Position numbers and translations under genes: made by a program. A DNA stretch of 64,000 nt from Anaerolineae bacterium (GTDB taxonomy: Bacteria > Chloroflexota > Anaerolineae > 4572-78 > J111), in assembly GCA_022071955.1 (NCBI GenBank), contig JAJVIM010000020.1, positions 248,001 to 312,000 on the forward strand. Direction: 5' to 3'. Of this stretch, positions 11,762-47,254 are shown in pieces. Position 1 is the stretch's first letter. Every line of letters begins with the position of its first letter. Under the pieces are notes generated by a model. That model saw only the letters and a program-made list of their open reading frames with translations. It was not told the DNA's origin and ran no database searches.

Positions 11762-11827
11762 AATGTATCACGTTCGCGGTTTTATTTCAGTAAACCTTGG
11801 GTGAAGGGTGCGTAAAGTTAAAGTAAA
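11762..11827 (-). promoter_or_regulatory. Array promoter C (fliK-flgD-flgE)
   Basis: Four direct repeats lie exactly 11 bp apart on the plus strand: GTAAA 11790, GTGAA 11801, GTAAA 11812, GTAAA 11823. Read toward fliK they are TTTAC-type boxes, the last of which adjoins the -35 hexamer CTGAAA (11785-11790). A 17-base spacer leads to the extended -10 TG-A-TACATT (hexamer 11762-11767). Start of transcription is expected near 11755, some 25 bases before the fliK GTG. Five other promoters in the window have the same layout. Confidence 0.88.
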
Positions 11828-11828
11828 T

Positions 11829-12242
11829 TTATCGTCCACCGCGAACAATGTTTTTTAACAAACCCAATTTGCCGGCGGTGAGTTGCGCCAGCGCCTGATA
11901 ACGCAGCGAGGTTTCGGCCAGGTTGGTCATTTCCAGGTCGATGTCAACATTGTTGCCATCATTGCGCAGGTCGTTGTCGTTTTGGCCTACTTCGATGAAC
12001 TGCGCTCCCGGCGAGGGGCTGAATGGCAGGTGGCCCGGGTTGGTGGTTTTGAGCGGCAGGCCGGGCTGGTCCAGTTCGCTGCGGAGCGCCTGCTGGAGCT
12101 GGTCTTCAAACTTCACAAACTGGGCCTTGTAGCCGGGCGTATCGACATTGGCGATATTGTTGCCGGTTACCCGCTGCCGCAGCGACAGGCCATCGAGCGC
12201 CGTGGACAGAGCGTGAAAGCCGAGATCGTTAAAAATTTTCAT
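11829..12242 (-). CDS. flgB: Flagellar proximal rod protein FlgB
   Basis: 137 residues. GNNIANVDTPGYKAQFVKFE is the rod-protein signature, and NNVDIDLEMTNLAETSLRYQ is the conserved FlgB C-terminal block. The length is standard. It forms part of the proximal rod together with FlgC and FliE. In most genomes flgB lies just before flgC, whereas here it is between the transglycosylase gene and fliK, 9 kb away from flgC. AGGAGGG precedes the ATG at 12242. Confidence 0.95.
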   Translation of the reverse strand: MKIFNDLGFHALSTALDGLSLRQRVTGNNIANVDTPGYKAQFVKFEDQLQQALRSELDQPGLPLKTTNPGHLPFSPSPGAQFIEVGQNDNDLRNDGNNVDIDLEMTNLAETSLRYQALAQLTAGKLGLLKNIVRGGR

Positions 12243-12251
12243 ACGGCCCTC

Positions 12252-12770
12252 CTAACCGGTCCAGCTTTTATACTGGTTGCGTAAATCAAGAATGCGCGGC
12301 ACGTAGGTTTGCGTTTCCTGGTAGGGCGGCACGCCACCCCATTTATCCACCGCGCCGGGGCCGGCGTTGTAGGCGGCCAGAGCTAATACCTCGTTGCCGT
12401 GGTAGCGGTTGAGGAGCTGGCTCAAAAATTTGGCCCCGCCTTCAATGTTTTGCACCGGGTCAAACGCATCGCGCACGCCCAGTCCGGCGGCGGTGGCGTC
12501 CATCAATTGCATCAGTCCTTTAGCGCCGGCGCTGGAAATTGCCGTGGGCGTAAAGTTGCTTTCGGCCTGGACAACCGCCTTTAGCAGCGACTCGTCCAGC
12601 CCGTGTTTTTGGGCGGCGGCGCTGATCAAATTATCAAATTCCGAGGCGCGGGCTTGCAGCATTTTACCGCTGCCGGGCCGCAAATTTTGCCCCCCCAACA
12701 GGGATTCCAGACGGGTGAGCACCGATTCCAAAAGGTTGTGTTGAAGCTGGGATAAAATGGGATCGATCAT
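12252..12770 (-). CDS. Lytic transglycosylase, SLT type (flagellar)
   Basis: 172 residues with a lytic transglycosylase domain over about 55-170. The catalytic glutamate is Glu70 in VVQAESNFTP. The motifs SSAGAKGLMQLM, NIEGGAKFLSQLLNRY and ALAAYNAGPGAV follow in family order. The enzyme cleaves peptidoglycan glycan strands. Placed between fliJ and flgB, it is likely to open the wall for the rod, the job of FlgJ in other bacteria; no FlgJ is present. It has no signal peptide, so export may be through the flagellar apparatus. AAAGGT precedes the ATG. Confidence 0.93.
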   Translation of the reverse strand: MIDPILSQLQHNLLESVLTRLESLLGGQNLRPGSGKMLQARASEFDNLISAAAQKHGLDESLLKAVVQAESNFTPTAISSAGAKGLMQLMDATAAGLGVRDAFDPVQNIEGGAKFLSQLLNRYHGNEVLALAAYNAGPGAVDKWGGVPPYQETQTYVPRILDLRNQYKSWTG

Positions 12771-12773
12771 TAT

Positions 12774-13220
12774 TTACCTTTCTCGCGCGTAACGGGTGGT
12801 AACCAGGTCGTCGATGATGCGGGCTTCGCGCCGGCGTTCATCAAGCTGCTGCGAGGCGATGTGGTTCTCTTTGAGTTTTTCCAGGGTCTTCTGGCTTTTC
12901 ATCGAATCAACCAGTTCGTCGCGTTTCGCATCAACTTTGGTCGCGGCGGCCTTTACCCGTGTTTTTTGCCGGGAAATCTGGGTGTCGAGCACTTGCAAAT
13001 ATTTTTGGCGCAGCAGAATGGCTTCGCAGTCCAGCAGGCCGTGCTGCTGGTGCTGAAGGTTATCCATTTCTTCAATCTTGGCGGCTTCCAGCCGTTCCAG
13101 CACTTCCATTTCGTTTTTGTGGGCCAGCTTGAGCTGGGCAAATTCCAACTCGAGCGTATCAACCATGCTGCTGGTGTAATTTAACACCGGTTCTAACCTG
13201 AAACTTCCTTTGCTTAACAT
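12774..13220 (-). CDS. fliJ: Flagellar export chaperone FliJ
   Basis: 148 residues, almost entirely predicted helix with heptad patterns (LEFAQLKLAHKNEMEVLERL), as expected of the FliJ coiled coil that fits into the FliI hexamer and contacts FlhA. Sequence alone is weak evidence for FliJ. The position directly after fliI, with the start sharing bases with the fliI stop, makes the call firm. The C-terminus is strongly charged. Confidence 0.85.
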   Translation of the reverse strand: MLSKGSFRLEPVLNYTSSMVDTLELEFAQLKLAHKNEMEVLERLEAAKIEEMDNLQHQQHGLLDCEAILLRQKYLQVLDTQISRQKTRVKAAATKVDAKRDELVDSMKSQKTLEKLKENHIASQQLDERRREARIIDDLVTTRYARER

Positions 13221-14566
13221 TACTTACTCTCCTGTTTCTTCTGTGCCTGACCTTTGCTGATATTGCTGAGCTGGGTTAACGTGGTTTCGTACGGGGTGGG
13301 TTCGTGCGCGCCTTGCCGCAAAAAATCAAGAATAGCCGGCATAAGCGCCACGGCCTTGTCAATGGTTGGGTTTGAGCCTTGAACATAAGCGCCAATATTG
13401 ATCAAATCGCTGGCTTTTTCGTAGGAGGCCAGCAGGTCTCGCAAATTACCGGCTGCCTGCCGATGTTCGGCGGCGGTGATGGCCGGCATGACCCGGCTCA
13501 CACTTTCCAGCACATCGATGGCCGGGTAGTGGTTTTGGCCGGCCAGTTCGCGAGACAGCACAATATGTCCATCCAAAATTGAGCGAACGGCGTCGGTAAT
13601 CGGCTCGGTCAAATCATCAGATTCAACCAGCACGGTGTAAAAACCGGTGATGGTACCCCGTTCGCCGGTGCCGGTGCGTTCCAGCAGTTTGGGCAGCATG
13701 GCAAACACCGACGGCGTGTAGCCTTTCATCGCTGGCGGTTCGCCGATAGCCAGCCCAATTTCGCGTTGGGCCATGGCAAAGCGGGTAACCGAGTCCATCA
13801 AAAATGAAACATCCTGCCCTTGGTCTCTGAAATATTCGGCGATGGCGGTAGCCACCCAGGCTCCTTTCAGCCGAACCAGCGCCGGCTGGTCGCTGGTGGA
13901 AACCACCACCACCGACTTGGCCAGCCCGTCCGCTCCCAAATCACGTTCGATAAATTCCTGTACCTCGCGGCCGCGTTCGCCAATCAGGGCGATCACGCTG
14001 ATATCGGCGCGGGCGTGGCGGGCAATCATGCCCAGCGTGGTGCTTTTGCCCACGCCGCTGCCGGCAAAAATGCCCATACGCTGGCCTTTGCCAATCGTCA
14101 AAAATGCGTCGATGGCCCGAACACCGGTTTCCAGCGGCTGGCTGATCATCATCCGGCCCAGCGGCGGCGGCGCATCGCCGGCGGCCGGGTAAGCGGCGTC
14201 GCAGTGAATGGGGCCTTTGCCGTCGATGGGGTTGCCCAGGCCGTCCAGCACCCGGCCCAGCAGCGCGTTGCCAACCGGCACGGTAAACAGCGAGCCGCTG
14301 GTTCGCACCGAACTGCCGGGGCCAATGCCGCGCATTTCGCCCAGCGGCATCAGCAGGGTGCGGTTATCCCTGAAACCCATCACTTCGGCGGGGATTTCTT
14401 TGCCGCCGTCTTTGGCCGAAATAAAACATAGTTCGCCAATTTGAGCCTGCAGCCCCTGGGCCTCAATCGTCAGGCCAATCACCTGCATCACCTGCCCGCG
14501 CCGGACAAAGGTGCTGGTGTTGGCTAAAGCTTTATGATAAGTTGGCCAGTTTACTACGATCGTCAT
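13220..14566 (-). CDS. fliI: Flagellar export ATPase FliI
   Basis: 448 residues from the ATG at 14566, which matches the length and N-terminus of other FliI proteins (VNWPTYHKALAN). A 13-residue longer start at 14605 is possible; neither has a clear ribosome site. The Walker A motif is GSGVGKST, followed by VIALIGERGREVQEF and FLMDSVTRFAMAQREIGLA, all diagnostic of the F1-like type III ATPase. It powers unloading of export substrates at the membrane, with FliH and FliJ. It has its own array promoter (14629-14695), needed because a divergent kinase gene separates it from fliH. Confidence 0.96.
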   Translation of the reverse strand: MTIVVNWPTYHKALANTSTFVRRGQVMQVIGLTIEAQGLQAQIGELCFISAKDGGKEIPAEVMGFRDNRTLLMPLGEMRGIGPGSSVRTSGSLFTVPVGNALLGRVLDGLGNPIDGKGPIHCDAAYPAAGDAPPPLGRMMISQPLETGVRAIDAFLTIGKGQRMGIFAGSGVGKSTTLGMIARHARADISVIALIGERGREVQEFIERDLGADGLAKSVVVVSTSDQPALVRLKGAWVATAIAEYFRDQGQDVSFLMDSVTRFAMAQREIGLAIGEPPAMKGYTPSVFAMLPKLLERTGTGERGTITGFYTVLVESDDLTEPITDAVRSILDGHIVLSRELAGQNHYPAIDVLESVSRVMPAITAAEHRQAAGNLRDLLASYEKASDLINIGAYVQGSNPTIDKAVALMPAILDFLRQGAHEPTPYETTLTQLSNISKGQAQKKQESK

Positions 14567-14628
14567 TTTCTGAATCTGCCAATTATCTGATAAAATATGA
14601 GCCATCTACCGATTTTGGCTCTAGGGTT

Positions 14629-14695
14629 ACTCTATCACGATTGATAAGCTGCTGTCAGTAAAGCTAACGTGAAGCGCGCGTAAAATCAGCGTAAA
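14629..14695 (-). promoter_or_regulatory. Array promoter D (fliI-fliJ-transglycosylase-flgB)
   Basis: Direct repeats on the plus strand are GTAAA 14658, GTGAA 14669, GTAAA 14680 and GTAAA 14691, exactly 11 bp apart. Toward fliI the last TTTAC box runs into the -35 hexamer CTGACA (14653-14658). The extended -10 is TG-A-TAGAGT (hexamer 14629-14634) with an 18-base spacer, one longer than in the five sister promoters. Start of transcription is expected near 14622. Confidence 0.85.
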
Positions 14696-14834
14696 ATAAA
14701 ACTGGGATAGATGTGCCATAGAATGTTAAGGTGAGGTGTGATAAGATTAGTTGGAATTGGCTATGCAGATGCCATAACGGCCGGGGTAAACCGGGGTCGT
14801 GCTCTTTTACAGGCGGATTCAAACGGGCGACTTC

Positions 14835-17800
14835 ATGACTAATCAGGAACAGATAAACCAGCCAGTTATCGGAGTTGTTGGCCGGCAGGCTCGTCTTTTT
14901 GAACACATCAGCGATGGGTTAATGGTCATCAACCACGACCAGACTGTTGCTTATGTCAACAAGTCTGCGGAGCGGCTTTTGGGGATTGGGCGTGCCGAAG
15001 TGGTTGGCCGCCCGCTCTTTAAAGTGTTCCCCGGCGCCAGGGGCACCGATTTTGAGCAAAAGCTTTTACTGGTGCGGCAGCAGGCAGCGCCCGTTAAATT
15101 TGATACCACATTCTATTCCCCTGCCGGCACAAACTGGTACCACTTTACCGTAGTGGCAGAAGATAACGCCTGCTTTGTTTATTTTTACGCCGGGCAAAGG
15201 CCTCAAACTGAAACGAGCCCGGCGGCCACGGGCGTTTCGGCCAACCGGCAGATCGCCAAAGAGTATGAATCCGTGCTGGCCGCCGAACGCGAGCAGCGCC
15301 TGATTGCCGAAACCCTGGCCGAAGTCACTTTGGCGTTAACCTCGCAAACCAGCCTCAAAAATGTGTTGGACGAAATGCTGCGCCAAACTCAGCGGTTGGT
15401 CTCTTACCGCACGGCGCACATTATGCTTTTAAAGGACGATCATCTGCACATTGCCGGCTGGCAGGGCTACCGCGAGCTGGGCAGCGAGGAGCTGGTCTCT
15501 CATCTGGTGCAGCCGCTGGCCGAATTTCCAATGGACGCCGAAGTGGTGCGCTCGCGCCAGCCGCTGGTTATTGTTGATACGCATCAAGAGTCGCGCTGGG
15601 TTATTCAGGAGCAAACAGCCTGGGTGCGGTCTCACCTGGTGGTGCCTATCTGTTTGGGCGAGCGGGTGCTGGGTATTCTCCGGCTGGACGCTAATACCAT
15701 CCACGCTTTTTCAGAAGAGCAGGTGGTCAAGCTTCAACCGTTAACCAACGTGGCCGCCATCGCTCTGGAAAATGCCCGCCTGTTTGAACAGGTGCAGCAG
15801 GAACTGGCCGAACGCAAACAAATAGAAAACGAGATCCGCCGCCGCAACAGCGAATTGGCGCTGCTCAACCAGGTTATTGCAGCTTCGGCCACCAGCCTTG
15901 AGCCAGAGACAATTTTGCAGATTACCTGCCAGGCCGTGGCCCAAACGTTTGAATTGCCCATTGTATCGGCTACTATGCTGAATAACGATAAAACCGCGGC
16001 CAACCTTGTGGCCTGGCATCCCCGCAACTTGCAGCCAACCGAATCACAGCAGCACTTCCCTATTGCCGCCGATCCCATTTTTCAATATCTGCTCCAAACC
16101 AAAACATCGCTGATAATTGCCGATGTGGCGACCGACCCCCGCCTGGCCGGCTCAACCAGCCCCATTTGCGCCGAAAAAGCGCAGTCGCTCCTGGTTTTGC
16201 CGGTGGTGGTTGAAGATCACGTGGTTGGCAGCCTCAATTTGCAGTCTACCCACAGCCATCAATTTACGCATCAGGAAATCAACCTGGCCTGGCGAGTCAT
16301 CGATCAGGTGGCCGGCGTTCTGGCTCGCGCCCAGTTAGATCAGCGCCATCGCCGCTTGAGCGAAGCCATTGAGCAGAGCGCCGAAAGCGTCGTTATTACC
16401 GATACCTCCGGCACTCTGGTTTATGTTAATCCCAGCTTTGAACGAATCACCGGTTACTCCAGCGATGAGGTGCTGGGTAAAAAGCTGAATATGCTCAAAA
16501 GCGGGCGGCAGGATGAGGCTTTTTATGATAACCTGTGGAAGACCATTCGCGGTGGGCAGGTGTGGCACGGCCGATTTATCAACAAACGCAAAGACGGCAC
16601 GCTTTACACCGACGACGCCACCATCAGCCCGGTTCGGAGTGAAAATGGAACAATTGTGGGCTTTGTTGGCGTGCAGCGCGATGTAACCCGCGAGCTTCAG
16701 CTTGAAGAGCAGTACCGGCAGGCTCAAAAAATGGAAGCGGTGGGGCTGTTGGCCGGCGGCATTGCCCACGATTTCAACAATTTGTTGACCGTTATCAACG
16801 GTTTTGCCGAAATGATCCAGTTTGAACTGCCGCCAGATAACCTGCATTTGCAAAAATTGGCCAGCCGGGTGCGTTATTCTGGCACGCGGGCGGCGGCGCT
16901 GGTGCGGCAGTTGCTGGCCTTTAGCCGGCGCGAGTTTGTCGAACCTAAGATTCTCAACCTCAATAAAGTTGTCACCGATATCAGCAAAATGCTGGAACGG
17001 CTGATTGAAGAAAACATTTCGCTGCGCACAGAATTTGCGCCGGATTTGTGGGCCGTTAAAGTTGATGCTCACCAGATTGAACAGATAATTGTCAACCTTA
17101 CCGTTAACGCCCGTGACGCCATGCCCGATGGCGGGTCGTTGAGCATTGAAACTGAAAACAAATTGCTGGATGACGAATTTGCTGCCGCTCATTTGGGCTT
17201 GAGTCCCGGCCGGTACGTGCTGCTCACCGTTATCGACAGCGGTACGGGCATGACGGATGACGTTAAAGAGCATCTGTTTGAACCGTTTTTTACCACCAAA
17301 GAGCAGGGCAAAGGGACCGGTTTGGGGCTGGCAACCGTTTTTGGAATTGTCAAGCAATATCAGGGCGCTATTTTTGTGTACAGCGAACCGGCCAAAGGCA
17401 CGACATTTAAAATTTATCTGCCGGCTTTTGTTGACAGTAGCGATGAAGAGGGAACGCCCGAACAGGCGGGGGGTATTCCGCGCGGCACCGAGGTGGTGCT
17501 GGTTGTTGAAGACGAGGCCGCCGTGCGCGATCTGGCGGCTTACATGCTGCGGCGACAGGGCTACACTGTGATCGAAGCGGGAAACGGCGAAGACGCGCTG
17601 CGGATTGCCGAAAAGCGAACCGGCAAAATAGACCTGCTGCTCACCGATACGGTCATGCCCAAAATGAGCGGCCACGTACTGGCCAATGAATTTAAGGTTT
17701 TGTACCCGGACACCAAAATTCTGTTTACTTCTGGCTACACCGATAAAAATGTAATGCGCCAGGGTATGACCGAGTCCGGCATTGATTTTATCCCCAAGCC

Positions 17801-17852
17801 ATTTTCGGCGGCCGAACTGGCCCGTAAAGTGCGGGCGGTGCTGGATAGCTGA
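14835..17852 (+). CDS. Hybrid sensor histidine kinase (PAS-GAF-GAF-PAS-HisKA-HATPase-REC)
   Basis: 1005 residues from the ATG at 14835; an in-frame GTG at 14799 would add 12. There is no membrane segment, so it is cytoplasmic. Domains in order: PAS (LFEHISDGLMVINHDQTVAY), GAF around residues 165-325, a second GAF around 340-505, PAS (AESVVITDTSGTLVYVNPSF), HisKA with the H-box GGIAHDFNNLL (His near 645), HATPase (NLTVNARDAM, then GTGLGLATVFG), and a C-terminal receiver with Asp in LLLTDTVMP. It should phosphorylate its own receiver or a partner. It is inserted on the opposite strand between fliH and fliI, which suggests a link with flagellar control, though none is proven. Confidence 0.93.
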   Translation: MTNQEQINQPVIGVVGRQARLFEHISDGLMVINHDQTVAYVNKSAERLLGIGRAEVVGRPLFKVFPGARGTDFEQKLLLVRQQAAPVKFDTTFYSPAGTNWYHFTVVAEDNACFVYFYAGQRPQTETSPAATGVSANRQIAKEYESVLAAEREQRLIAETLAEVTLALTSQTSLKNVLDEMLRQTQRLVSYRTAHIMLLKDDHLHIAGWQGYRELGSEELVSHLVQPLAEFPMDAEVVRSRQPLVIVDTHQESRWVIQEQTAWVRSHLVVPICLGERVLGILRLDANTIHAFSEEQVVKLQPLTNVAAIALENARLFEQVQQELAERKQIENEIRRRNSELALLNQVIAASATSLEPETILQITCQAVAQTFELPIVSATMLNNDKTAANLVAWHPRNLQPTESQQHFPIAADPIFQYLLQTKTSLIIADVATDPRLAGSTSPICAEKAQSLLVLPVVVEDHVVGSLNLQSTHSHQFTHQEINLAWRVIDQVAGVLARAQLDQRHRRLSEAIEQSAESVVITDTSGTLVYVNPSFERITGYSSDEVLGKKLNMLKSGRQDEAFYDNLWKTIRGGQVWHGRFINKRKDGTLYTDDATISPVRSENGTIVGFVGVQRDVTRELQLEEQYRQAQKMEAVGLLAGGIAHDFNNLLTVINGFAEMIQFELPPDNLHLQKLASRVRYSGTRAAALVRQLLAFSRREFVEPKILNLNKVVTDISKMLERLIEENISLRTEFAPDLWAVKVDAHQIEQIIVNLTVNARDAMPDGGSLSIETENKLLDDEFAAAHLGLSPGRYVLLTVIDSGTGMTDDVKEHLFEPFFTTKEQGKGTGLGLATVFGIVKQYQGAIFVYSEPAKGTTFKIYLPAFVDSSDEEGTPEQAGGIPRGTEVVLVVEDEAAVRDLAAYMLRRQGYTVIEAGNGEDALRIAEKRTGKIDLLLTDTVMPKMSGHVLANEFKVLYPDTKILFTSGYTDKNVMRQGMTESGIDFIPKPFSAAELARKVRAVLDS

Positions 17853-23306: not shown

Positions 23307-23372
23307 ACTATAGCATGCCCCTCTTCAACTTTCAGTAAACTTGGCGTGAAACAAACGTATAGGTTGCGTAAA
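23307..23372 (-). promoter_or_regulatory. Array promoter A (GH-flgC-fliEFGH operon)
   Basis: Plus-strand repeats GTAAA 23335, GTGAA 23346, GTATA 23357 and GTAAA 23368 are 11 bp apart. Toward the GH gene the last box adjoins CTGAAA as -35. A 17-base spacer gives the extended -10 TG-C-TATAGT (hexamer 23307-23312). Transcription should start near 23300, which leaves a 28-base leader to the ATG at 23272. It stands back to back with promoter B. Confidence 0.88.
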
Positions 23373-23381: not shown

Positions 23382-23447
23382 TTTACGCAAAGTTTATGGC
23401 CTCTTTATGTGCCGTTTACTGACACCCCACAGCCAAAATGATATATT
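23382..23447 (+). promoter_or_regulatory. Array promoter B (flbD-motAB-fliLMNOPQ operon)
   Basis: Boxes TTTAC 23382, TTTAT 23393, TTTAT 23404 and TTTAC 23415 are 11 bp apart. The last runs into the -35 hexamer CTGACA (23419-23424). The spacer is 17 bases and the extended -10 is TG-A-TATATT (hexamer 23442-23447). Start near 23454 leaves a leader of about 88 bases before flbD. The box clusters of A and B are only 9 bases apart and point away from each other. Confidence 0.88.
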
Positions 23448-23541: not shown

Positions 23542-23766
23542 GTGATAAAAGTTTCGCGCTTAAACAAATCTGAGTTGTGGATAAACGCCGAACTGATTGA
23601 ATTTATTGAAGAAACCCCGGATACAGTGATTTCATTGATCAGCGGCAAAAAAATAATTGCCCGTGAACCGGCGGGTGTGCTGATTGATGAAATCATCGCC
23701 TATCGCCGGCGTGTTGGCTATCAGCGGCCGCTGGTAATTCCTGAAACGGATGAAAAGGAAGAATAG
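23542..23766 (+). CDS. flbD: Flagellar protein FlbD
   Basis: 74 residues from the GTG at 23542. VIKVSRLNKSELWINAELIE opens the protein, then EETPDTVISLISGKKIIARE; both fit the small FlbD family found before motA in many operons. Family length is about 60-75, which supports this start over longer in-frame options that run into the promoter. The role is not well known; it is tied to motility. The stop is 3 bases before motA. Confidence 0.9.
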   Translation: MIKVSRLNKSELWINAELIEFIEETPDTVISLISGKKIIAREPAGVLIDEIIAYRRRVGYQRPLVIPETDEKEE

Positions 23767-29260: not shown

Positions 29261-31657
29261 CTAATCCAGATCGTACATCAGCCGGATTTCAGCCTGAATT
29301 TGGGCTGCCAGCGCCGGGTTATCGCCGGCAATATTTTGCGCGTACTGGTAGCTGGTGCTGGCCGCATCGAGATTGCCCTGATAAAAATTGAGCCGGCCGG
29401 TGCGGTAGTACAGTTCGGCCAGTTGTTCCGGGTTGTTTTTGGCAATTTCCCACACCATTTTGTAACAGGCCGCAGCCTGGCCAAAATCGCCGGCAAAGGT
29501 GTTGGCGTCACCCAGCGCGTTGACCACCTGCAAAATAGTGGTGGTGTCCGGGGTGGGCACCGTTTTTAGCGCACTCAGCGCAATCCCCAAATGATGGACC
29601 GCGTCGGTAAACTCAAAGTTTTCCAGAGCACGCTGGCCAACCATCCAGTTGTAAATAACCACTTTTTCTTCCTGCCCGCCGGCCATGTAGTGGCGCGCCA
29701 GCGACTCGATGCTTTCGGTGTCAATATTGGTGCTGGGCCGGGCTTTTTCGGTAAGTGACACAATCTTCTCGTGGAGTTCGCGGCGGCTTTTGCGCAGCAT
29801 GCTTTTGTAAGCCACCTCTCGCACCACCATCTGCGAAAAAGCCAGCATTCTGTCGGAATCACTGGCCTCGGCCGGTTCGATAATCAGGCCGCGTTGAATT
29901 AGATTTTCAAGGGCGCGGTCAAATTCTTTTAGCGGGGTGATGGCCTGCAACAGTTCGTAGCTAAAGCTGGTGCCAATAACAGAGGCGTGTTGCAGCACCA
30001 TCCGGCTGGCGTCATCGAGCATATCCAGATGGGCCATCACCTGCCCTTCAATGCTATGCGGAATGTAAATTTCTTCAATGGAGCGGGTTAGCCGCCATTT
30101 GCCATCCTGCCGGATCAGTTGCTCAGATTGCACCAGGCCGCGGGCTGCTTCTTCCAGATAGAACGGGTTGCCGCCGGACTCGTTGATGAGCCGGTCAACC
30201 AGCACAACGGGCAGTTCGCCGCCGGGGAGCAGGCTGTTGATAAGATCGCGCCGGGCGTGGACACTGAGCGGCGCAAGTTTAACAATGGCGTTGGGTTGAA
30301 ACAGCTCCAATGGAATTTCCAGATGCGGCCGGGTAGCCGCTAAAACAAACAGCTCTTGCGCGTTTTGGTTGTGCGCCGGGATTGATTTGACAGCGCCCAA
30401 TAATTTGAGCCACTCCAGCGAGTTGGCATCGGCCCACTGCAAATTGTCAACAAGGATTACCAGCGGCCGGCGCGTGGCCTGCTTTAAAAACAGGCTCACC
30501 GCCAGGCTAATGGCCGATTTGCGAACCTGATCCAGTGTTTGTTCAATGCCGGCCAGCCGTTCGTCCTCTTGATACCAGCCCAAAAAATAACCCATCAGCG
30601 GCACAAAATCGCGTTCTGAAAACCCCAATATCTGGGCCCGGTCTTCTATTTTGCGGTGCTGCATCAGCCGGGTATCATCGGCTTTTATGTCAAACAGTTG
30701 CAGCAGCAGGTCTTTGAGCGGCGAGTAATCGTTGCCGGAACTGGCCACGCCGTAAACCTGCAAAACCATTGGGGTTTTGTTGAAATTGTAATTTTCAACG
30801 TCGCGGATAAAATCGGCCAGCAACCGGCTTTTGCCCATACCGGCCTCGCCGGTGAGCAGCAGAAACTGGCTTTTACCGGCCATCGCCAGCGACAGGTGGG
30901 CGTGCAGAGTTTGCAACTCCATATCACGTTCAATCAGCGGCGATCTGTGGTCGAGCCGCTGTTTTTTGTGGTTAAAACCCTGGCGCACGCGCAAAGGCTG
31001 GTAAATGGGCACGGCATTCTTTTTGCCCTTTACCTTGATGGGGTCCAGCACCTTGTATTCAAAATAGCGGCGGGTGAGGGCGTACACCGGATCAGACACC
31101 AGAATCTGGCCGTTGGAGGCGTGGCTTTCCAGCCGGCTGGCCAGGTTTACATCATCGCCGATAACGGTGGCGGCCATGCGCCCCGCCGGCCCCATTTTTC
31201 CCCACACCACAATGCCGGTGTTAATGCCAATATTCAATTTAAAGGCGTGGCCCACTTTTTCTTTCATCAGCGGGGCCAGCTCTTCCATTGCCTGTTGCAT
31301 GCCCAGCGCCGCCCGCACGGCCCGCACCGGGTCGTCTTCGTGGGCGCGGGGCGCGCCAAACAGCACCATCAACTGATCGCCCACGGTTTTGTCCAGATAA
31401 CCGCCTTCGCGATCGTATTCTACCGCCAGCCGGGTAAAAACCTGGTTGAGCATATCGATCACGTCTTCGGGGTCGGCATTTTCACTGGTAGCCGTAAACG
31501 AAGCCAGGTCGGCAAATAAAATGGTTACCAGCCGCCGGTCGCCCATCCACAGTGAGCCGGTGGCCGAGGTTTGTGGCTGGCCGCAGTGGGGGCAGTAGGT
31601 TACCGCAAAAGGCAACGGTTGGACGCAATGGCTGCAAGTAAACGGAACGGCGCTCAT
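29261..31657 (-). CDS. Class III nucleotide cyclase with AAA ATPase and TPR region
   Basis: 798 residues. The N-terminus is a double CxxC zinc ribbon (CSHC and CPHC, residues about 9-26). A class III cyclase domain follows (about 38-215), with the metal site segment LFADLASFTAT and VGDQLMVLFGAPRAHEDD. Then comes an AAA/NACHT-like ATPase (Walker A GEAGMGKSRLL near 275) and a helical TPR-like C-terminus. This build is common in Chloroflexota and Actinomycetota; product (cAMP or cGMP) is not certain. The ATG overlaps the HD-GYP stop by 4 bases, so the two form one operon. It is inserted against the fliQ-fliR direction. Confidence 0.9.
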   Translation of the reverse strand: MSAVPFTCSHCVQPLPFAVTYCPHCGQPQTSATGSLWMGDRRLVTILFADLASFTATSENADPEDVIDMLNQVFTRLAVEYDREGGYLDKTVGDQLMVLFGAPRAHEDDPVRAVRAALGMQQAMEELAPLMKEKVGHAFKLNIGINTGIVVWGKMGPAGRMAATVIGDDVNLASRLESHASNGQILVSDPVYALTRRYFEYKVLDPIKVKGKKNAVPIYQPLRVRQGFNHKKQRLDHRSPLIERDMELQTLHAHLSLAMAGKSQFLLLTGEAGMGKSRLLADFIRDVENYNFNKTPMVLQVYGVASSGNDYSPLKDLLLQLFDIKADDTRLMQHRKIEDRAQILGFSERDFVPLMGYFLGWYQEDERLAGIEQTLDQVRKSAISLAVSLFLKQATRRPLVILVDNLQWADANSLEWLKLLGAVKSIPAHNQNAQELFVLAATRPHLEIPLELFQPNAIVKLAPLSVHARRDLINSLLPGGELPVVLVDRLINESGGNPFYLEEAARGLVQSEQLIRQDGKWRLTRSIEEIYIPHSIEGQVMAHLDMLDDASRMVLQHASVIGTSFSYELLQAITPLKEFDRALENLIQRGLIIEPAEASDSDRMLAFSQMVVREVAYKSMLRKSRRELHEKIVSLTEKARPSTNIDTESIESLARHYMAGGQEEKVVIYNWMVGQRALENFEFTDAVHHLGIALSALKTVPTPDTTTILQVVNALGDANTFAGDFGQAAACYKMVWEIAKNNPEQLAELYYRTGRLNFYQGNLDAASTSYQYAQNIAGDNPALAAQIQAEIRLMYDLD

Positions 31658-32808
31658 AATGTCGCCTCAATCAGCATATCCTGTTTGACAGCCAGGTTCA
31701 GGTCGATGGGGCTGATCCGCCCGCCATTGGGGTTAAACAGCAGCCGGACAACCGGCCGGTCGGGCTGTTTGCCTGTTTCAAGAACCACCCCTTTGTAATT
31801 GGCAAACCGGCCGGTTCGCAACACCACGTTCAGACCAACCGGAAAGACTGGCAACATCGACAGAAAAATATCAACAACTTCCCGATTTAAAAATGTGCCG
31901 GCCAGTTGGCGCATAGTGTTTGCCACCTGCATGGGGGCCAGCGGCGGGTGATGAGCCGTGCCATTGCTCAAAATGTCAAACACATCGGCCACGCCGGCAA
32001 TTTCGGCGATCAGCAGAATGTTGTCGCGGCCAAAGCGGGTGCGTTCCAGCCCGTTGGTGCCGCGCAAGCCGCGGGGATAGCCCTGTCCGTCCTGCCGTTC
32101 GTGGTGTTCCAGGGCCACGTGATTGATCATCACGTTATCCGGATTGCGCTGGCGCAGCAGTTCGTAGCCCAGGCGGGGATGCTCGCGCAACTTGAGCCGG
32201 TTGGGCATGTGGCCGTTCAATTTAAACAGATGGGGGTCAAAAAACACCTTGCCGATGTCGTGGAGCATGCAGCCGGTGCCCAGCCGTACCAGGTCGTCCA
32301 GCGCCAGGTGCAAATTAATGCCGATGAGCATGGCGGCCACCGCTACATTTACCGCGTGGCTAAATTGGGTGTGACTCTGGTTTCTGATCTGGCTGAGGCC
32401 GGCCAGAGTTTTCTTTTCAAACAGCTCGGGCAGCAGCGAGGCCGCGGTTTGCTCCAGTTGGACAAAATCCGGGCTGGATTGCACAGCCTGGGCCAGTTCG
32501 GCCTCGGCGGCGGCTTCTGCCGGCGGCTCATCGATGGTTGCCAGCAATTGCCGGACAAACTCAAATACCCGCCCGACGGTTTGCTGGGCTTGCTGCCGGG
32601 CGTCGTCGGGGATGGCTGAGTCGATGTGAATGGCGTCGGCATCTTCAACCGTTACAAAAACCAGCGACAGACCTCGCTGCTTGAGAACGGCGATATACTC
32701 GTCGGTTAGCGCCACCCCCTGTCTCAGCAAGGTGCGTCCCTTGTCGTCGGTAATGGGTTTGGCCAAAACCATGCCGGGCTGCACGATGTCGGTGGGTAGT
32801 TTCAGCAT
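31654..32808 (-). CDS. HD-GYP domain protein, probable c-di-GMP phosphodiesterase
   Basis: 384 residues from the ATG at 32808. A longer start at 32865 would lie inside the sigma-28 promoter and is rejected. N-terminal about 60 residues contain LAKPITDDKGRTLLRQG, often seen before HD-GYP domains. The HD-GYP core shows LHDIGKVFFDP, HMPNRLKLREHP and HHERQDGQGYP. It should hydrolyse cyclic di-GMP, the usual signal for stopping motility. The sigma-28 promoter at 32866-32892 ties it to late flagellar expression. Confidence 0.93.
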   Translation of the reverse strand: MLKLPTDIVQPGMVLAKPITDDKGRTLLRQGVALTDEYIAVLKQRGLSLVFVTVEDADAIHIDSAIPDDARQQAQQTVGRVFEFVRQLLATIDEPPAEAAAEAELAQAVQSSPDFVQLEQTAASLLPELFEKKTLAGLSQIRNQSHTQFSHAVNVAVAAMLIGINLHLALDDLVRLGTGCMLHDIGKVFFDPHLFKLNGHMPNRLKLREHPRLGYELLRQRNPDNVMINHVALEHHERQDGQGYPRGLRGTNGLERTRFGRDNILLIAEIAGVADVFDILSNGTAHHPPLAPMQVANTMRQLAGTFLNREVVDIFLSMLPVFPVGLNVVLRTGRFANYKGVVLETGKQPDRPVVRLLFNPNGGRISPIDLNLAVKQDMLIEATL

Positions 32809-32865
32809 ACATATCCCAATGGAATAGAGTAGTAAAAAGTGTGACCAGTGGTGTGCTCTGTTCAA

Positions 32866-32897: not shown

Positions 32898-32963
32898 TTT
32901 ACGCTAATTTTATGAACCGTTGACACGAACTTTACAGACACAGTGGGTGCCATGTGATATAAA
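32898..32963 (+). promoter_or_regulatory. Array promoter E (fliR-flhB-flhA operon)
   Basis: Boxes TTTAC 32898, TTTAT 32909, TTGAC 32920 and TTTAC 32931 are 11 bp apart. The last adjoins the -35 hexamer CAGACA (32935-32940). After a 17-base spacer comes the extended -10 TG-A-TATAAA (hexamer 32958-32963). Start near 32970 leaves about 59 bases to the fliR ATG. Confidence 0.88.
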
Positions 32964-39633: not shown

Positions 39634-40449
39634 ATGATGGACAACGCGGTAGAACTCTGGCAACGCTACAGACAACAAAATGATCGTCAGGCCCGGGAGG
39701 AGTTGATTATTCACTACAACCGGCTGGTGAAATATGTGGTTGGCCGGCTAACCCTGGGCCTCCCCCCCAGCCTGCAATACGAGGATTTGGTGGGCTACGG
39801 GATTTTGGGCCTCATCGAAGCGATTGACCGCTTTAACCCGGAACAGGGCGTAAAGTTTGCCACGTATGCCGTTACCCGGATTCGCGGCCAAATCATCGAC
39901 TCGCTGCGGGCGATGGACCTGCTGCCGCGCTCGGTGTACCGGCACAACCGCGAAGTTGAAAGCGCGCTCGCCGCGCTGAGCCAGGAATTTGGCCGCGCCC
40001 CGGAAGACCACGAAGTAGCCCAGCATCTCAATATCAGTCTGGAACAATACTACGGCTGGTTGGGCGACATCAACTTTTCAATTGTATCGCTGGACCAAAC
40101 GTTGGTTTATGACAACGGCGAAGAAGGAAACCTGTACGGATCGTTGGAGGATACGCACATGCCCTCACCCTCACAAGAAATTGACGACACTGAAATGAAA
40201 GCCGAACTGATTGCCGCCATTCGCAAACTGCCCCAACGCGAACAGCTCATGATTTCGCTTTACTACAACGATGGCCTGACCATGAAAGAAATTGGCCAGG
40301 TGCTCGATGTTTCGGAATCACGTGTGAGCCAGATTCACGCCCGGGCGGTACTTACCCTGCGCGGCATGATTAAAAGCCGAACCGAACCCAACCCCGTAAT
40401 GTATAACAGGAGAGGAGCCCATGCTTCAGTATTCGCTGCTGCTGGTTGA
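39634..40449 (+). CDS. fliA: RNA polymerase sigma-28 factor FliA
   Basis: 271 residues. Region 2 is seen in LVKYVVGRLTLGLPP and YGILGLIEAIDRFNPEQGVK; region 4 ends with TMKEIGQVLDVSESRVSQIH. The order of conserved blocks and TRIRGQIIDSLRAMD are typical of FliA/WhiG. It directs late flagellar genes. Matching promoters are seen before flgM and the HD-GYP gene. GTAAGGAAG precedes the start. The last 29 bases overlap the next gene. Confidence 0.97.
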   Translation: MMDNAVELWQRYRQQNDRQAREELIIHYNRLVKYVVGRLTLGLPPSLQYEDLVGYGILGLIEAIDRFNPEQGVKFATYAVTRIRGQIIDSLRAMDLLPRSVYRHNREVESALAALSQEFGRAPEDHEVAQHLNISLEQYYGWLGDINFSIVSLDQTLVYDNGEEGNLYGSLEDTHMPSPSQEIDDTEMKAELIAAIRKLPQREQLMISLYYNDGLTMKEIGQVLDVSESRVSQIHARAVLTLRGMIKSRTEPNPVMYNRRGAHASVFAAAG

Positions 40450-42045: not shown

Positions 42046-42058
42046 TTTTTTTTGCGCG

Positions 42059-42102
42059 TCCCAAATTTTGGGAAAACGCCGGGGGTGCGGGGGTGTCCCC
42101 CG
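42059..42102. repeat. Two small palindromes before flgF
   Basis: TCCCAAATTTTGGGA (42059-42073) has 7-base arms, and CGGGGG-TGT-CCCCCG (42088-42102) has 6-base arms. They lie in the 124-base gap between the LPVTG gene and flgF. A T-run stands before the first and not after the second, so a terminator for the upstream gene is uncertain. No promoter with a box array or sigma-28 sequence was found here. Confidence 0.6.
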
Positions 42103-42169
42103 AATCTTCTCCGGTGTGCCCCAATTCCCCGAAAGCTGGGATGCACGCTGACTTTTCTGGAGGTTTATT

Positions 42170-42922: not shown

Positions 42923-43704
42923 TGCCAGCAATTTCACTTTCGGCGCTGCTGCACGTTTCCCGCGCCGGTCTGCTAACCCAACAGGCCGGCCTGGATGTAA
43001 CCGCCAATAATATTGCCAATGTCAGCACCACCGGCTTCAAACGCAGCCGGGCCGAGTTTCAGGAGCTGCTCAATGACCGGCTGGAAGAGCCGCCAGAAGG
43101 CAACAATCGCGCCGCCGGAGAAGCCGCCGGGGCCAGGTTGGTAGATACCCAGCATATTTTCAGCCAGGGCGTCATCGAAGCCACCGATTTTCAGTGGGAT
43201 TTGGCCATAGAAGGCGAGGGCTTTTTTCAGGTGCTGCGTAATGACGGCACACTGGCCTACACCCGCGATGGCACCTTTCGGCTGGATGGCGAGGGCCGCG
43301 TCGTTAACGCCGATGGCCATCTGCTGCAGCCGGAAGTGATTATTCCCCCCGACGCCGAAGAAACAATGATCACCGGCGAGGGCAAAGTGATGGTCCGCCG
43401 CACCGGTGAACTGGAACCGCAGGTAATTGCGACCATCAACCTGGCCCGCTTCACCAATCCGGCCGGGCTGGAAACCGCCGGCCAAAACCTGTTTCTGCCT
43501 ACCGACGCTTCCGGTGCGGCCCAGTTGGCCCAGGCCGGCAGCCAGGGGTACGGTACGGTGATCAGCTACGCGCTGGAGCAATCCAACATTGATTTGAGCA
43601 ACGAAGTTGTGGATATGATCAGCGCCCAGCGGGCCTACTCGATGATGGCCCGGGCGCTTCGCACCACCGATGAAATGATGGGGCTGGCCACCCAAATCCG
43701 GTAG
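42922..43704 (+). CDS. flgG: Flagellar distal rod protein FlgG (FlhP-like)
   Basis: 260 residues. TANNIANVSTTGFKRSRAEF, WDLAIEGEGFFQVLRNDGT and the C-terminal EQSNIDLSNEVVDMISAQRA are FlgG signatures; the length is the standard one. It forms the distal rod beneath the hook. In this organism no L/P ring genes accompany it. A hairpin at 43729-43755 follows. Confidence 0.92.
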   Translation: MPAISLSALLHVSRAGLLTQQAGLDVTANNIANVSTTGFKRSRAEFQELLNDRLEEPPEGNNRAAGEAAGARLVDTQHIFSQGVIEATDFQWDLAIEGEGFFQVLRNDGTLAYTRDGTFRLDGEGRVVNADGHLLQPEVIIPPDAEETMITGEGKVMVRRTGELEPQVIATINLARFTNPAGLETAGQNLFLPTDASGAAQLAQAGSQGYGTVISYALEQSNIDLSNEVVDMISAQRAYSMMARALRTTDEMMGLATQIR

Positions 43705-43728
43705 AACCTTCTTCCCCTTATCCCCCTA

Positions 43729-43755
43729 CCCCCTTCTCCCTCAGGGAGAAGGGGG
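43729..43755 (+). terminator. Probable terminator after flgFG
   Basis: CCCCCTTCTCC and GGAGAAGGGGG pair around a small CTCAG loop, with 11-base arms (outer limits 43729-43755). ATTTGATTCTT follows, which gives only a weak T-rich tail. It separates the flgFG operon from the sigma-28-driven flgM operon. Confidence 0.75.
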
Positions 43756-43805
43756 ATTTGATTCTTGGGGCCAGCCAAATTCCCCAATCCAAATCTTAAA
43801 AAATC

Positions 43806-43832
43806 TAAAGTTGCCCCACCCTGTGCCGATAC
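43806..43832 (+). promoter_or_regulatory. Sigma-28 promoter of flgM-flgN-flgK-flgL
   Basis: TAAAGTTG (43806-43813), an 11-base spacer, and GCCGATAC (43825-43832) match the FliA consensus almost perfectly. Transcription would begin near 43840, about 50 bases before flgM. It places the anti-sigma factor and the hook-filament junction proteins in the late class, as in other bacteria. Confidence 0.9.
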
Positions 43833-43891
43833 TTTTACCAGTAGCAGGTTTTCTGCCAATTAGAATTTCGGCAAAAGCGTGAGAGGTAAAA

Positions 43892-44182
43892 ATGATCGAT
43901 AAAGTTCAACACAGCTTGCCCTCCGGGTACACCAACAGTGTCAACAACATTGATGGCAAGCTGGGGGCAGTGCAAAACGGAAAAGTGCAGCAGGTTTCCA
44001 ACTCCACCGAAGTGAGTCTGTCGGGCGATGCGCTGGCTTTGCAACGAATTATGCAAGCCGCCAAAGATGCGCCGGACGTCCGCACAGACCTGGTCCAAAA
44101 AATCAAAGGCCAGATTCAGGCCGGGACCTATCAGGTGAACACGGAAAACGTCGCTGCCAAACTGCTCCCCTTTATGCAATAA
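43892..44182 (+). CDS. flgM: Anti-sigma-28 factor FlgM
   Basis: 96 residues. STEVSLSGDALALQRIM and VRTDLVQKIKGQIQAGTYQV, ending in NVAAKLLPFM, are FlgM signatures. It holds FliA inactive until it is secreted through the completed hook. GAGAGGT precedes the ATG. The sigma-28 promoter in front creates the usual feedback loop. Confidence 0.95.
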   Translation: MIDKVQHSLPSGYTNSVNNIDGKLGAVQNGKVQQVSNSTEVSLSGDALALQRIMQAAKDAPDVRTDLVQKIKGQIQAGTYQVNTENVAAKLLPFMQ

Positions 44183-44194
44183 GGACGGGTGGCA

Positions 44195-44707
44195 ATGGCT
44201 CAAGATAGACACTTCTTTATTGAAGAACTCCAGTCTATCCTCACCCACGAAGCCGGCGGTTATCGCCAACTGGTAGCCCTGGCCCAGCGCGAACATGAGG
44301 CGCTGCGGCAGGAAAACCTGGTCCAACTCTCGGCGGCGGTGCAGGATAAAGAATCGCTCCTCCCTCAATTGAAAAAATGGGAAGCAGCCAGAGAGCAACT
44401 GGTGACCCGGTTGGCCGGTGAATTTCACCTGCCGGCCAGCGCCACCCTGTCCGATTTAATTGACCGCCTGGATGAAGCGATGGCTCGCAAGCTCAGCGCA
44501 CTGCGGCAGGAATTTGTGACCTTGCTGGAACAACTGCTGCGCCTCAACCAAACCAACCAGATGATGCTGCAAGCCGGGTTGGTTAGAGTTGACGCTACGT
44601 TTGGTTATTTGGCCTCATTGGCCGCGCCCAGCAACGGCCACTACACCCCGCGCGGGGCCAGCCAGAGCCAGTCTTCAGCCGGCCAAATGTTAAATTGGGA
44701 AGCCTGA
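44195..44707 (+). CDS. flgN: Flagellar chaperone FlgN
   Basis: 170 residues from the ATG at 44195 with AAGGACG; a GTG at 44189 is possible. All helical, with LVALAQREHEALRQENLVQL and LLEQLLRLNQTNQMMLQAGL as FlgN-like segments. It should be the chaperone of FlgK and FlgL, which follow at once. Sequence similarity alone is moderate; context is decisive. Confidence 0.88.
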   Translation: MAQDRHFFIEELQSILTHEAGGYRQLVALAQREHEALRQENLVQLSAAVQDKESLLPQLKKWEAAREQLVTRLAGEFHLPASATLSDLIDRLDEAMARKLSALRQEFVTLLEQLLRLNQTNQMMLQAGLVRVDATFGYLASLAAPSNGHYTPRGASQSQSSAGQMLNWEA

Positions 44708-44708
44708 T

Positions 44709-46169
44709 ATGTACACAACCTTTGGCAGCTTAAACACCGCCCTCCAAACGCTGCATTCCATGCAGCAATCCATTCAAACCAGTTCGCACAACGTGGCCAA
44801 CGCCAACACGCCCGGCTATTCGCGCCAGTCAACCGTGCTGGTGGCCGGCCACCCCTACTCGGTGCCGGCCATGAACCGCTACGCTCCGTTTGGCCAGGTG
44901 GGCACCGGCGTGGTGGTAGACCGGATGAAGCGCTTCCGCGACAGCTATCTTGACACCCAGATTCGGCAGGAAACGCTGGCCCGTGATGGCTGGGAAGTTC
45001 GCCGCGATGTGCTCCAGCAAGCCGAGGTGGTTTGGAACGAACCTTCCGAAACTGCCATCAACAGCCAGATGAGTCAATTTTGGACAAGCTGGCAAAATAT
45101 GGCCACCACTCCTGCCGAAACCGGCACACGCACCAATTTATTGGCCGATGCCGATGCGCTGGCCACCACCATTACCGATACCTACCGCCAGCTCAAAGAC
45201 CTGCGGACCGAACTCGATGCTCAGGTAGGCCGCCACGTGGGCAGCATCAACACCCTGGCCAGCCAGATTGCCAGCATCAACGAGCGCATCCGCGATGTGG
45301 AAGGTGTGGGCCAGCAGGCCAACGACCTGCGCGACCAGCGTGACCAGCTCCTCACCGAGCTTTCGGGCTACATTAATGTTGACATACACGAAGGCGAAAG
45401 CGGTACGGTAATGGTCAGCCTGGGCGGCAAATTGCTGGTGATGGACCACGTGGCCACCCAACTCCGGGTAGAAGCCGACCCGGCCAATGGCACGCTCAAT
45501 CGCGTGGTATGGGCCGACACCGGCCAGATTGCCCAGGTAGGCGGCGTGCAACTGGCCGGCGGCCTGTCGGCAGTAGCGCCGGATCGGCTGGGCGGCAAGT
45601 TGGGCGGTACCCTCATTGCCCGCGATATGATTGTGCCCGGCCAGATGAACCGGCTGGACCAGATTGCCAATACCCTGCGCACGCAGGTGAACACCCTCCA
45701 TTCCGCCGGTTTTGGGCTTGATGGTTCAACCGGACTGAATTTTTTTACCGGCACCGGCGCGCAGGATTTTGCCGTTAACAGCGTGGTACTGGCCGATACC
45801 AACAAAGTGGCCGCCGCGGCCGATGCGGCCAGTCTGCCCGGCGACGGCTCAAACGCGCTGGCGATTGCCCGGCTGGCCACCGCCAAATTAATGAACGGTG
45901 GTACGGCCACCATCGATCAGTATTACCGTTCGGGCATCGCCGAGTTGGGCCAGCAGGCCCGGCAAGCCGTTTTAATGACCGAAAATCAGGATTTGCTGGT
46001 GCAGCACCTGGAAGAGCGGCAGGAACAGATTGCCGGCGTGTCGCTGGATGAGGAAACTACCCGGATGCTGCAATACCAGCACACCTACCAGGCCGCAGCC
46101 CGGGTAATGACTACCGTCGATGGCATGATCGACACGATTATCAACAAAATGGGCCTGGTTGGCCGATAA
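44709..46169 (+). CDS. flgK: Flagellar hook-associated protein FlgK (HAP1)
   Basis: 486 residues. SSHNVANANTPGYSRQSTVL is the N-terminal signature, and the C-terminus has VSLDEETTRMLQYQHTYQAA as in FlgK. EPSETAINSQMSQFWTSWQN is the family's next conserved block. It joins hook and filament. The length is on the short side because the central variable domain is small. It starts one base after flgN ends. Confidence 0.96.
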   Translation: MYTTFGSLNTALQTLHSMQQSIQTSSHNVANANTPGYSRQSTVLVAGHPYSVPAMNRYAPFGQVGTGVVVDRMKRFRDSYLDTQIRQETLARDGWEVRRDVLQQAEVVWNEPSETAINSQMSQFWTSWQNMATTPAETGTRTNLLADADALATTITDTYRQLKDLRTELDAQVGRHVGSINTLASQIASINERIRDVEGVGQQANDLRDQRDQLLTELSGYINVDIHEGESGTVMVSLGGKLLVMDHVATQLRVEADPANGTLNRVVWADTGQIAQVGGVQLAGGLSAVAPDRLGGKLGGTLIARDMIVPGQMNRLDQIANTLRTQVNTLHSAGFGLDGSTGLNFFTGTGAQDFAVNSVVLADTNKVAAAADAASLPGDGSNALAIARLATAKLMNGGTATIDQYYRSGIAELGQQARQAVLMTENQDLLVQHLEERQEQIAGVSLDEETTRMLQYQHTYQAAARVMTTVDGMIDTIINKMGLVGR

Positions 46170-46184
46170 GACAGGAGGTGACTG

Positions 46185-47087
46185 ATGCGTATCACGCAAA
46201 AAATGCTCGCCACATCGGCGTTGAATGGCATGCAAACCAACCTGCGCCGCCTGTCGGAATTGCAGCGGCAGGCTGTTACCACCAGGCGCGTCAACAAACC
46301 AGAAGACGATCCGTTTGCCGTGGAGCAGAGTTTGGGCTTTCGCTCAAAAATCAAGGCCAGCGAAACCACGCGCGGCAATATCGGCCTGAGCCGCGATTGG
46401 CTGTCGGCCACTGATCAAGCCCTGGATCACGTAGGCAGCCTGCTCAACCGGGCGCAATCGTTGGCACTGCAGGGCGCCAGCGACACCCTCGGTGACGAGG
46501 GACGGCAGGCGGTGTCCGTCGAAGTGAATGAAATTCTGGAAGAAATGATGGCCGTAGCCAATACTCGCCACGGCGACGATTACCTGTTTTCCGGTTTTAA
46601 GTTGAGCACGCCGGCCTACGCTGAAACCCGCGATGTTCAGGGGCAGATCAGCTCCATTGCGGCCAACGGCGTGATCAGCGGCCAGATTGTGCGCGAAGTT
46701 GAACCCGGCGTCAATATGGTCGTCAACGTTTCCGGCGACAGCGTTTTCCCCGGCATCTTTAACATGCTCATCAATTTGCGCGACGCGCTGGTGCAAACTC
46801 CGTATGATCCGGCGGCGCTTGAAACCGCCATCACCGATATTAAAGCGGGGCTGAATACCACTCTGGATGTTCGGGCGGCGGTGGGCACCAAAATGCGGCG
46901 GCTGGAATCGGCCACCGCGCGCATGGAAGATGCCGAACTGGGGATGCAGGAGCTGCTTTCCAAGGCAGAAGACGCCGATATGACCAAAGTGATTACCGAT
47001 CTGAACCAGCAAAAATTTGTGTACGAAACAGCCCTGGCCGTAAATAGCCGCGTTTTGAATACATCATTGTTAGATTATCTGCGGTAG
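46185..47087 (+). CDS. flgL: Flagellar hook-associated protein FlgL (HAP3)
   Basis: 300 residues. MRITQKMLATSALNGMQTNL with RRVNKPEDDPFAVEQSL-like sequence is flagellin-family; the C-terminus has DADMTKVITDLNQQKFVYE, then LAVNSRVLNTSLLDYLR. The position after flgK and the flagellin-like but shorter build identify FlgL. It is not flagellin itself; no fliC is in the window. ACAGGAGGTG precedes the start. Confidence 0.95.
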   Translation: MRITQKMLATSALNGMQTNLRRLSELQRQAVTTRRVNKPEDDPFAVEQSLGFRSKIKASETTRGNIGLSRDWLSATDQALDHVGSLLNRAQSLALQGASDTLGDEGRQAVSVEVNEILEEMMAVANTRHGDDYLFSGFKLSTPAYAETRDVQGQISSIAANGVISGQIVREVEPGVNMVVNVSGDSVFPGIFNMLINLRDALVQTPYDPAALETAITDIKAGLNTTLDVRAAVGTKMRRLESATARMEDAELGMQELLSKAEDADMTKVITDLNQQKFVYETALAVNSRVLNTSLLDYLR

Positions 47088-47129
47088 GATACGGCGCGGC
47101 ATCGATTAATCTGGATAATACGGCCGGTG

Positions 47130-47177
47130 AGATAAATGAGAGGCAAAGGGCTGGCCCCATTGTCTCTTTTTTATCTC
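47130..47177 (+). terminator. Probable Rho-independent terminator after flgL
   Basis: GAGATAAATGAGAGGCAAAGG pairs imperfectly with the stretch ending in TTTTTTATCTC across a short GGCTGGCC-type loop. Both ends, GAGATAAA and TTTATCTC, match. The T-run lies in the second arm. It separates flgMNKL from the fliW promoter. Confidence 0.7.
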
Positions 47178-47188
47178 AGGTAATAGCC

Positions 47189-47254
47189 TTTACGTTACAT
47201 TTACCCGGCCTTAACTCTAAGTTTATGCAAAAAGAAAATGACCTGTGCTAAATT
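47189..47254 (+). promoter_or_regulatory. Array promoter F (fliW-csrA and following surface genes)
   Basis: Boxes TTTAC 47189, TTTAC 47200, TTAAC 47211 and TTTAT 47222 are 11 bp apart. The last meets the -35 position (TGCAAA, 47226-47231, the weakest of the set). A 17-base spacer leads to the extended -10 TG-C-TAAATT (hexamer 47249-47254). The layout is the same as in the five other arrays. No terminator is seen downstream before the adhesin ends. Confidence 0.82.

Follow-up and report, generated by a model that had tools for sequence, protein, structure and literature searches.

The stretch analysed here, referred to below as the window, is a 64,000-nucleotide segment of an Anaerolineae genome of the phylum Chloroflexota (GCA_022071955.1, contig JAJVIM010000020.1, positions 248,001 to 312,000). 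It carries a flagellar gene cluster in which six operons are preceded by promoter modules of one design, four short direct repeats running into an extended -10 element. Direct reading of the sequence confirmed the positions and strands that an earlier note had given for all six modules, and Pfam and NCBIfam assignments placed a flagellar operon downstream of each, in its reading direction. On the minus strand, module S1 (11762..11827) precedes fliK-flgD-flgE, with fliK starting at 11729, S2 (14629..14695) precedes fliI-fliJ-lytic transglycosylase-flgB, and S3 (23307..23372) precedes a 412-aa gene that gave no Pfam match and is followed by flgC-fliE-fliF-fliG-fliH. On the plus strand, S4 (23382..23447), which lies back to back with S3, precedes flbD-motA and the genes that follow, S5 (32898..32963) reads into fliR-flhB-flhA through fliA, with flgM, flgN, flgK and flgL further down the same strand, and S6 (47189..47254) precedes fliW (47279). 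The flbD reading frame is listed from 23407 and overlaps the promoter; homology indicates a GTG at 23542 as its likely start. In the window flhA was identified by PF00771, while the names motB, fliL, fliM, fliN, flhB and flhF are ones we presume from gene order.

When aligned in the direction of their genes, the six sites all show four boxes of 5 bases repeating at exactly 11 bp, together with a -35-like hexamer and an extended -10. S1 has the boxes TTTAC/TTTAC/TTCAC/TTTAC at 11 bp, then the -35 sequence CTGAAA, 17 bp and TGATACATT; the corresponding -35, spacer and -10 elements are CTGACA, 18 bp and TGATAGAGT in S2, CTGAAA, 17 bp and TGCTATAGT in S3, CTGACA, 17 bp and TGATATATT in S4, and CAGACA, 17 bp and TGATATAAA in S5, and S6 has TTTAT as its last box, the -35 sequence TGCAAA and TGCTAAATT. 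The 11-bp spacing and the spacer of 17 bp (18 bp in the fliI site) were as previously described, but the boxes are more degenerate than the TTTAC type proposed (TTTAC, TTTAT, TTCAC, TATAC, TTGAC and TTAAC all occur). Likewise, the rule that the C of the fourth box opens the -35 holds in five of the six sites and fails at fliW, where TTTAT meets TGCAAA, and the proposed -10, TGNTANANT, does not fit the fliR site exactly, whose end reads TATAAA. Across 48 aligned sites, which were picked by a model and so favour column agreement, the invariant positions (48/48) were T1 T2 A4, A15, T23 T24 A26, T34-T36 A37 and G60 T62 A63, and the first box carried C5 in 47 and G6 in 41.

Pairs of TTTA[CT]/TTCAC boxes in the window peaked at distances of 11 bp (13 pairs), 22 bp (12) and 33 bp (6), with 0 to 4 at other distances, and masking the six sites reduced these peaks to background (1, 3 and 0, respectively). 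Equally spaced triples (6) and quadruples (3) occurred at period 11 only, among periods 6 to 16. A four-box pattern composed after the sites had been viewed (TTTAN7TTTAN7TTNACN6TTTA) gave 11 window matches with at most three mismatches, against 0.11 expected from shuffles (largest value 1), and those with no or one mismatch were the six sites alone. Against this, a bare three-box pattern with at most two mismatches was barely enriched genome-wide (39 versus 30 in a reversed control); to distinguish the module, the fourth box and the promoter must be added.

To extend the comparison, two models were used, both with approximate E-values. R1 is a sequence-only covariance model from the six sites alone, and was searched against the whole 7.87-Mb genome and 80 relatives; R2 was made from 48 sites, and its training took in those of the genome's own order together with G057, G028 and G030 (relatives are cited by genome number). 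Beyond the training sites, R1 matched the own genome at C11:219461 (E 1e-8), C36:29943 (3e-4), C11:312204 (2.8e-3) and five weaker places. The strongest of these comes directly behind cheX; the hexapeptide-transferase, methyltransferase and TPR-glycosyltransferase genes that it precedes plausibly serve flagellin glycosylation. At E<=0.01, R1 matched 19 of the 80 relatives, own genome included. Seven flagellates besides the own genome (G001, G004, G013, G015, G017, G023 and G057) gave 48 matches, 43 of which were taken in, and for 30 of the 43 a homologue of a flagellar-cluster gene starts within 200 bp: flbD (6), fliR (6), fliW (5), the gene of no assigned function before flgC (5), fliK (4), fliI (3) and HP956 (1). 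Of the 43, 29 thus fall at starts of the six operons known from the window, and one falls at a gene close to flgE; the remaining 13 precede glycan-type genes, signalling genes or genes without assignment. For G001 the figure is only 2 of 7 matches at flagellar-cluster gene starts.

R2 detected modules (E<=1e-3) in 28 of the 298 class genomes. FlhA was found in 22 of the 298, two of these weakly, and 11 of the 20 good cases have the module. Under laxer filters (E<=0.05), 7 of 12 flagellates outside the training set gave a match. Among genomes outside training, G168 has modules before flbD, fliR and the flgC operon as well as between regulator and kinase (see below), G109 has them before fliA and at the flgC operon, and G082 before fliA; the matches in G046, G080, G082 and G109 were located at flbD, fliA or the flgC operon. 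The single G035 match lies on a contig other than the flagellar one, and a degenerate array is visible by eye before flbD in that genome; matches in G216 and G246 were examined in part only. In a sample of 400 genomes of the phylum, 3 matched (E<=1e-4); the own genome is among them, and all three belong to its class. R1 gave zero matches at E<=10 in 80 FlhA-centred loci of named genomes, mostly of other phyla and many ending at contig ends, which rules out, within loci so cut, the module as a general feature of bacterial flagellar genes.

At the far end of the window lies a gene for an OmpR-family response regulator (61263..61961, minus strand) with a receiver and a Trans_reg_C domain (PF00072, 2e-29; PF00486, 1e-19). 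Its reading frame opens at 62069, and homology together with a ribosome-binding-like site favours the ATG at 61961. Next to it, on the same strand, is a hybrid histidine kinase (57714..61205; receiver, GAFs, PAS, HisKA and HATPase), its predicted partner, and a kinase homologue adjoins the regulator in G001, G004, G007, G028, G035, G048, G057, G082, G168 and G216. Membership of the OmpR/PhoB family is evident from the two domains, and the head-to-tail repeats of about 11 bp have the form of an operator for such a protein; the 61263-61961 product is likely the one that binds the boxes, a prediction from sequence.

Genomic neighbourhood ties the regulator to flagellar genes throughout the class. 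Homologues at 49-51% identity adjoin flbD in G046 and G080, and the stretch between the two genes there contains three boxes and a TGNTA-type -10; a kinase sits between regulator and flbD in G057, G035 and G216, and a more divergent regulator (38%) abuts flbD in G172. The regulator lies 8-24 kb from flhA on the same contig in G000, G035, G046, G080, G082, G216 and G246, that is, in 7 of the 14 flagellates having it at E<=1e-60 (p ~2e-10 by a rough binomial at about 1.3% each). It also co-occurs with the module: 23 of the 28 genomes with modules have it, against 47 of the 270 lacking them, and outside the own order (n=277, inferred from the order of the genome listing) the numbers are 11 of 15 versus 46 of 262. 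These figures ignore shared ancestry. All genomes with an orthologue of 65-87% identity (G001, G004, G007, G013, G016, G018 and G023) have strong modules. The recognition helix reads LVRMH in the module-rich genomes of the own order with full sequence and in G168, G082 and G048, LVRVH in G057, G216, G200 and G028, and LVRAH in eight sequences of family f37 and in G025 and G063, all from module-free genomes; exceptions are G026 (LVRAH with one weak R1 match) and G010, G019 and G031 (LVRMH without a module). Because the eight f37 sequences form one clade, this correlation is weak evidence.

The sigma-54 DNA-binding domain PF04552 had no match at E<=0.01 in the own genome, which is 90% complete. 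Control of the flagellar genes by sigma-54 was rejected on this ground, which bears out the earlier view as regards sigma-54. Downstream of S5 lie fliA, encoding sigma-28 (39634..40449, plus strand), and flgM, encoding its anti-sigma factor (43892..44182, plus strand). The flagellin, fliS and fliD genes are upstream of the window on the same contig (L010), and no module was seen before flagellin-fliS-fliD; instead, a sigma-28-like sequence, TAAA-N15-GACGATAA, at L010:3727 begins 251 bp before flagellin. It has one mismatch to the late-promoter consensus of sigma-28, TAAA-N15-GCCGATAA. The sole other match of a sigma-28 scan of the window, with a 17-bp spacer, lies at 11829-11857 on the minus strand, directly upstream of S1. 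The position of fliA and flgM behind S5 and the sigma-28-like flagellin promoter fit a two-tier cascade in which the regulator would stand above FliA and fliA would open the second tier. The enrichment before motility genes that the earlier note had named as a check is seen at flagellar operon starts in relatives, but does not extend to flagellin or fliD, and the chemotaxis pair cheW-cheR on C8 is preceded by no more than a weak site of two boxes (E 0.06).

Modules are not confined to flagellar genes. No FlhA match was obtained in 17 of the 28 module genomes, many of these assemblies being incomplete; given such genomes, restriction of the module to flagellates was rejected. In two families the gene behind a module is prkA, encoding an AAA_PrkA kinase (G016, G168, in the latter at 478 bp; L165:3345-5610, L296:4301-6950). 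Modules also stand before a cytidylyltransferase-NeuB pair in G004 and, in G016, before a Flp-pilin-like gene that falls under the Pfam cut-off. In G016 and G018 a carbamoyltransferase-TPR cluster follows at 300-520 bp from the module (Pfam was run on the G016 genes only), and G007 and G048, in which FlhA was undetected, have a module before fliA. No phosphate genes were noticed among the annotated downstream genes, several first genes having no assignment and no search having been aimed at pst/pho. Separately, a histidine kinase gene follows a gene for a small protein bearing two CxxC-type pairs, and this arrangement has a module in the own genome just right of the window and in G001 (L011:204-576, L201:3-461); the own-genome module there is weak (E 2.8e-3 with R1, 0.08 with R2). 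The modules before non-flagellar genes suggest that the regulator probably has a wider role than flagella. The putative regulon reaches beyond flagella and also covers glycan genes, PrkA and signalling genes.

Our best explanation, to which we give a probability of roughly three in four, is that an OmpR-type regulator, most likely the 61263-61961 product, activates the six sigma-70-type flagellar promoters through the four-box arrays. The modules would be activator-dependent promoters of the housekeeping sigma factor, and the phosphorylated regulator would bind as two head-to-tail dimers on four TTTACG-type half-sites placed one helical turn apart. As the last half-site overlaps an imperfect -35 (CTGACA), the regulator would sit against sigma region 4 and recruit RNA polymerase to the extended -10 (TGNTATANT). 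The regulator would probably receive its phosphate from the hybrid kinase encoded next to it. In this way the hook/basal body, export, motor and fliA operons would be switched on together, FliA would then drive flagellin, and the term "master control" used in the earlier note may be apt. Glycan genes, which perhaps serve flagellin, and some signalling genes would answer to the same regulator, and it may run other programmes in relatives that have no FlhA.

Several observations weigh against this explanation. In the window no four-box module was seen before the gene for the regulator itself, and the flagellates G049, G107, G130, G136 and G172 gave none at E<=0.05. Of the genomes with the regulator, 47 of the 70 have no module at E<=1e-3, and a single-clade origin of the flagella-linked regulators was unsupported, requiring seven changes on the tree. 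At E<=1e-40 the own genome gives 14 matches to the regulator; one of them is the regulator itself, and one of the other 13 is at 52% identity. Moreover, G015 and G109, flagellates with modules, have no close homologue of the regulator, and the best in G017 is at 45% identity and has an internal stop; these assemblies are 80-87% complete. Another OmpR-family paralogue might therefore bind the modules in place of the linked regulator. We regard this as unlikely, in view of the strong modules in every genome with a 65-87% orthologue and of the homologues of the linked regulator that adjoin flagellar genes in distant families, although the linkage of other regulators was not compared likewise.

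A second question is what the arrays are for. They might belong to a wide regulon for lifestyle or stress (surface change, PrkA, glycans) in which flagella form only one branch, making "flagellar master control" a misnomer. The module genomes without an FlhA match, many of them incomplete, and the modules before prkA, the Flp-pilin-like gene and the cytidylyltransferase-NeuB pair point that way; yet six of the seven strongest own-genome sites are flagellar and the seventh stands by chemotaxis and glycosylation genes (by a model trained on all seven and on relatives), and the regulator is linked with flbD. We hold this reading tentatively, at somewhat less than even odds, and it is compatible with our best explanation. 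That the arrays are repressor sites appears improbable: the last box overlaps the -35 and a protein bound there could block it, but four boxes upstream of or at an imperfect -35, at a fixed distance, are what activation would be expected to look like. Least credible is that the T-rich boxes, repeated at the helical period upstream of a promoter, act as curved DNA or an UP element with no dedicated protein, given the invariant A at the fourth place of each box, the near-constant C5 (47/48) and frequent G6 (41/48) of box 1, the lack of A-tracts and the association with one group of regulators.

Genes for a class III cyclase/AAA protein and for an HD-domain protein (29261-32865) are paired divergently from fliR in the window and kept next to fliR in G001, G004, G013, G015 and G017. 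A hybrid histidine kinase divergent from fliI (14799-17852), with homologues near flagellar genes in G004, G017 and G023, is a second candidate kinase for the system. After fliW comes a 2814-aa protein (49027-57471); in G001, G004, G017 and G168 its relatives stand under a module or close to fliW or the regulator. A csrA-like gene, named by eye, stands behind fliW in G023, G004 and G013 (L182, L205, L211).

Taken together, these results describe a well-supported candidate for an OmpR-type flagellar control system of which we found no prior description. With a defined operator and a candidate regulator and kinase, the question of control becomes testable without culturing, and the module signature could trace flagellar and surface regulation in metagenomes. 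We consider it an evenly balanced proposition that this is a class-wide two-component switch in uncultured Chloroflexota, in which an OmpR-type regulator on four-box arrays would be the ancestral top of the cascade, would couple flagella to glycosylation and PrkA signalling, and would persist in non-flagellates driving other surface programmes.

The form of the modules fits tandem binding of an OmpR/PhoB-family protein next to a sigma-70-type promoter, as the earlier note had proposed; the recurrence of the module before the same operons in relatives and the linkage of regulator and flagella across the class also support the note's interpretation. Phosphate regulators of the PhoB/PhoP type likewise use 11-bp direct repeats touching a sigma-70 promoter, but their box sequence differs from the TTTACG type; a literature search on Pho boxes found nothing. 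The best PDB sequence matches of the regulator, covering both domains, are RpaA, MtrA and RegX3 (9dvt, E 2e-50; 2gwr; 2oqr). The likeness is one of sequence similarity only, and to our knowledge none of the three is a flagellar regulator. CtrA, too, is an OmpR-family response regulator. It differs from the regulator proposed here in being a cell-cycle regulator of another phylum and in having two half-sites or one, of sequence TTAA, where our modules have four of the TTTACG type and do not show TTAA-N7-TTAA.

The earlier note knew of no such flagellar control in this group; our literature search likewise turned up no paper that treats the control of flagellar promoters in Chloroflexota, but OmpR-type precedents exist in the Alphaproteobacteria. 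The closest paper found maps flagellar structural and "regulatory" genes in Dehalococcoidia and reports flagella in Tepidiforma, to which direct evidence of flagella in the phylum is limited, and the words promoter and response regulator are absent from its main text (PMC10284905). Among the precedents, CtrA of Caulobacter and other Alphaproteobacteria acts at TTAA-N7-TTAA near the -35 with flagellar genes in its regulon, and it thus resembles the proposed system as a DNA-binding response regulator with half-sites at the same 11-bp period near the -35 and a flagellar regulon (PMC4287350). Rem of rhizobia, which has no obvious partner kinase (PMC4018554), and FtcR of Brucella (PMC9456535) are OmpR-type flagellar activators like the regulator proposed here, but belong to another phylum. 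If our reading is true, the Anaerolineae modules would represent an OmpR-type scheme of flagellar control outside the Alphaproteobacteria.

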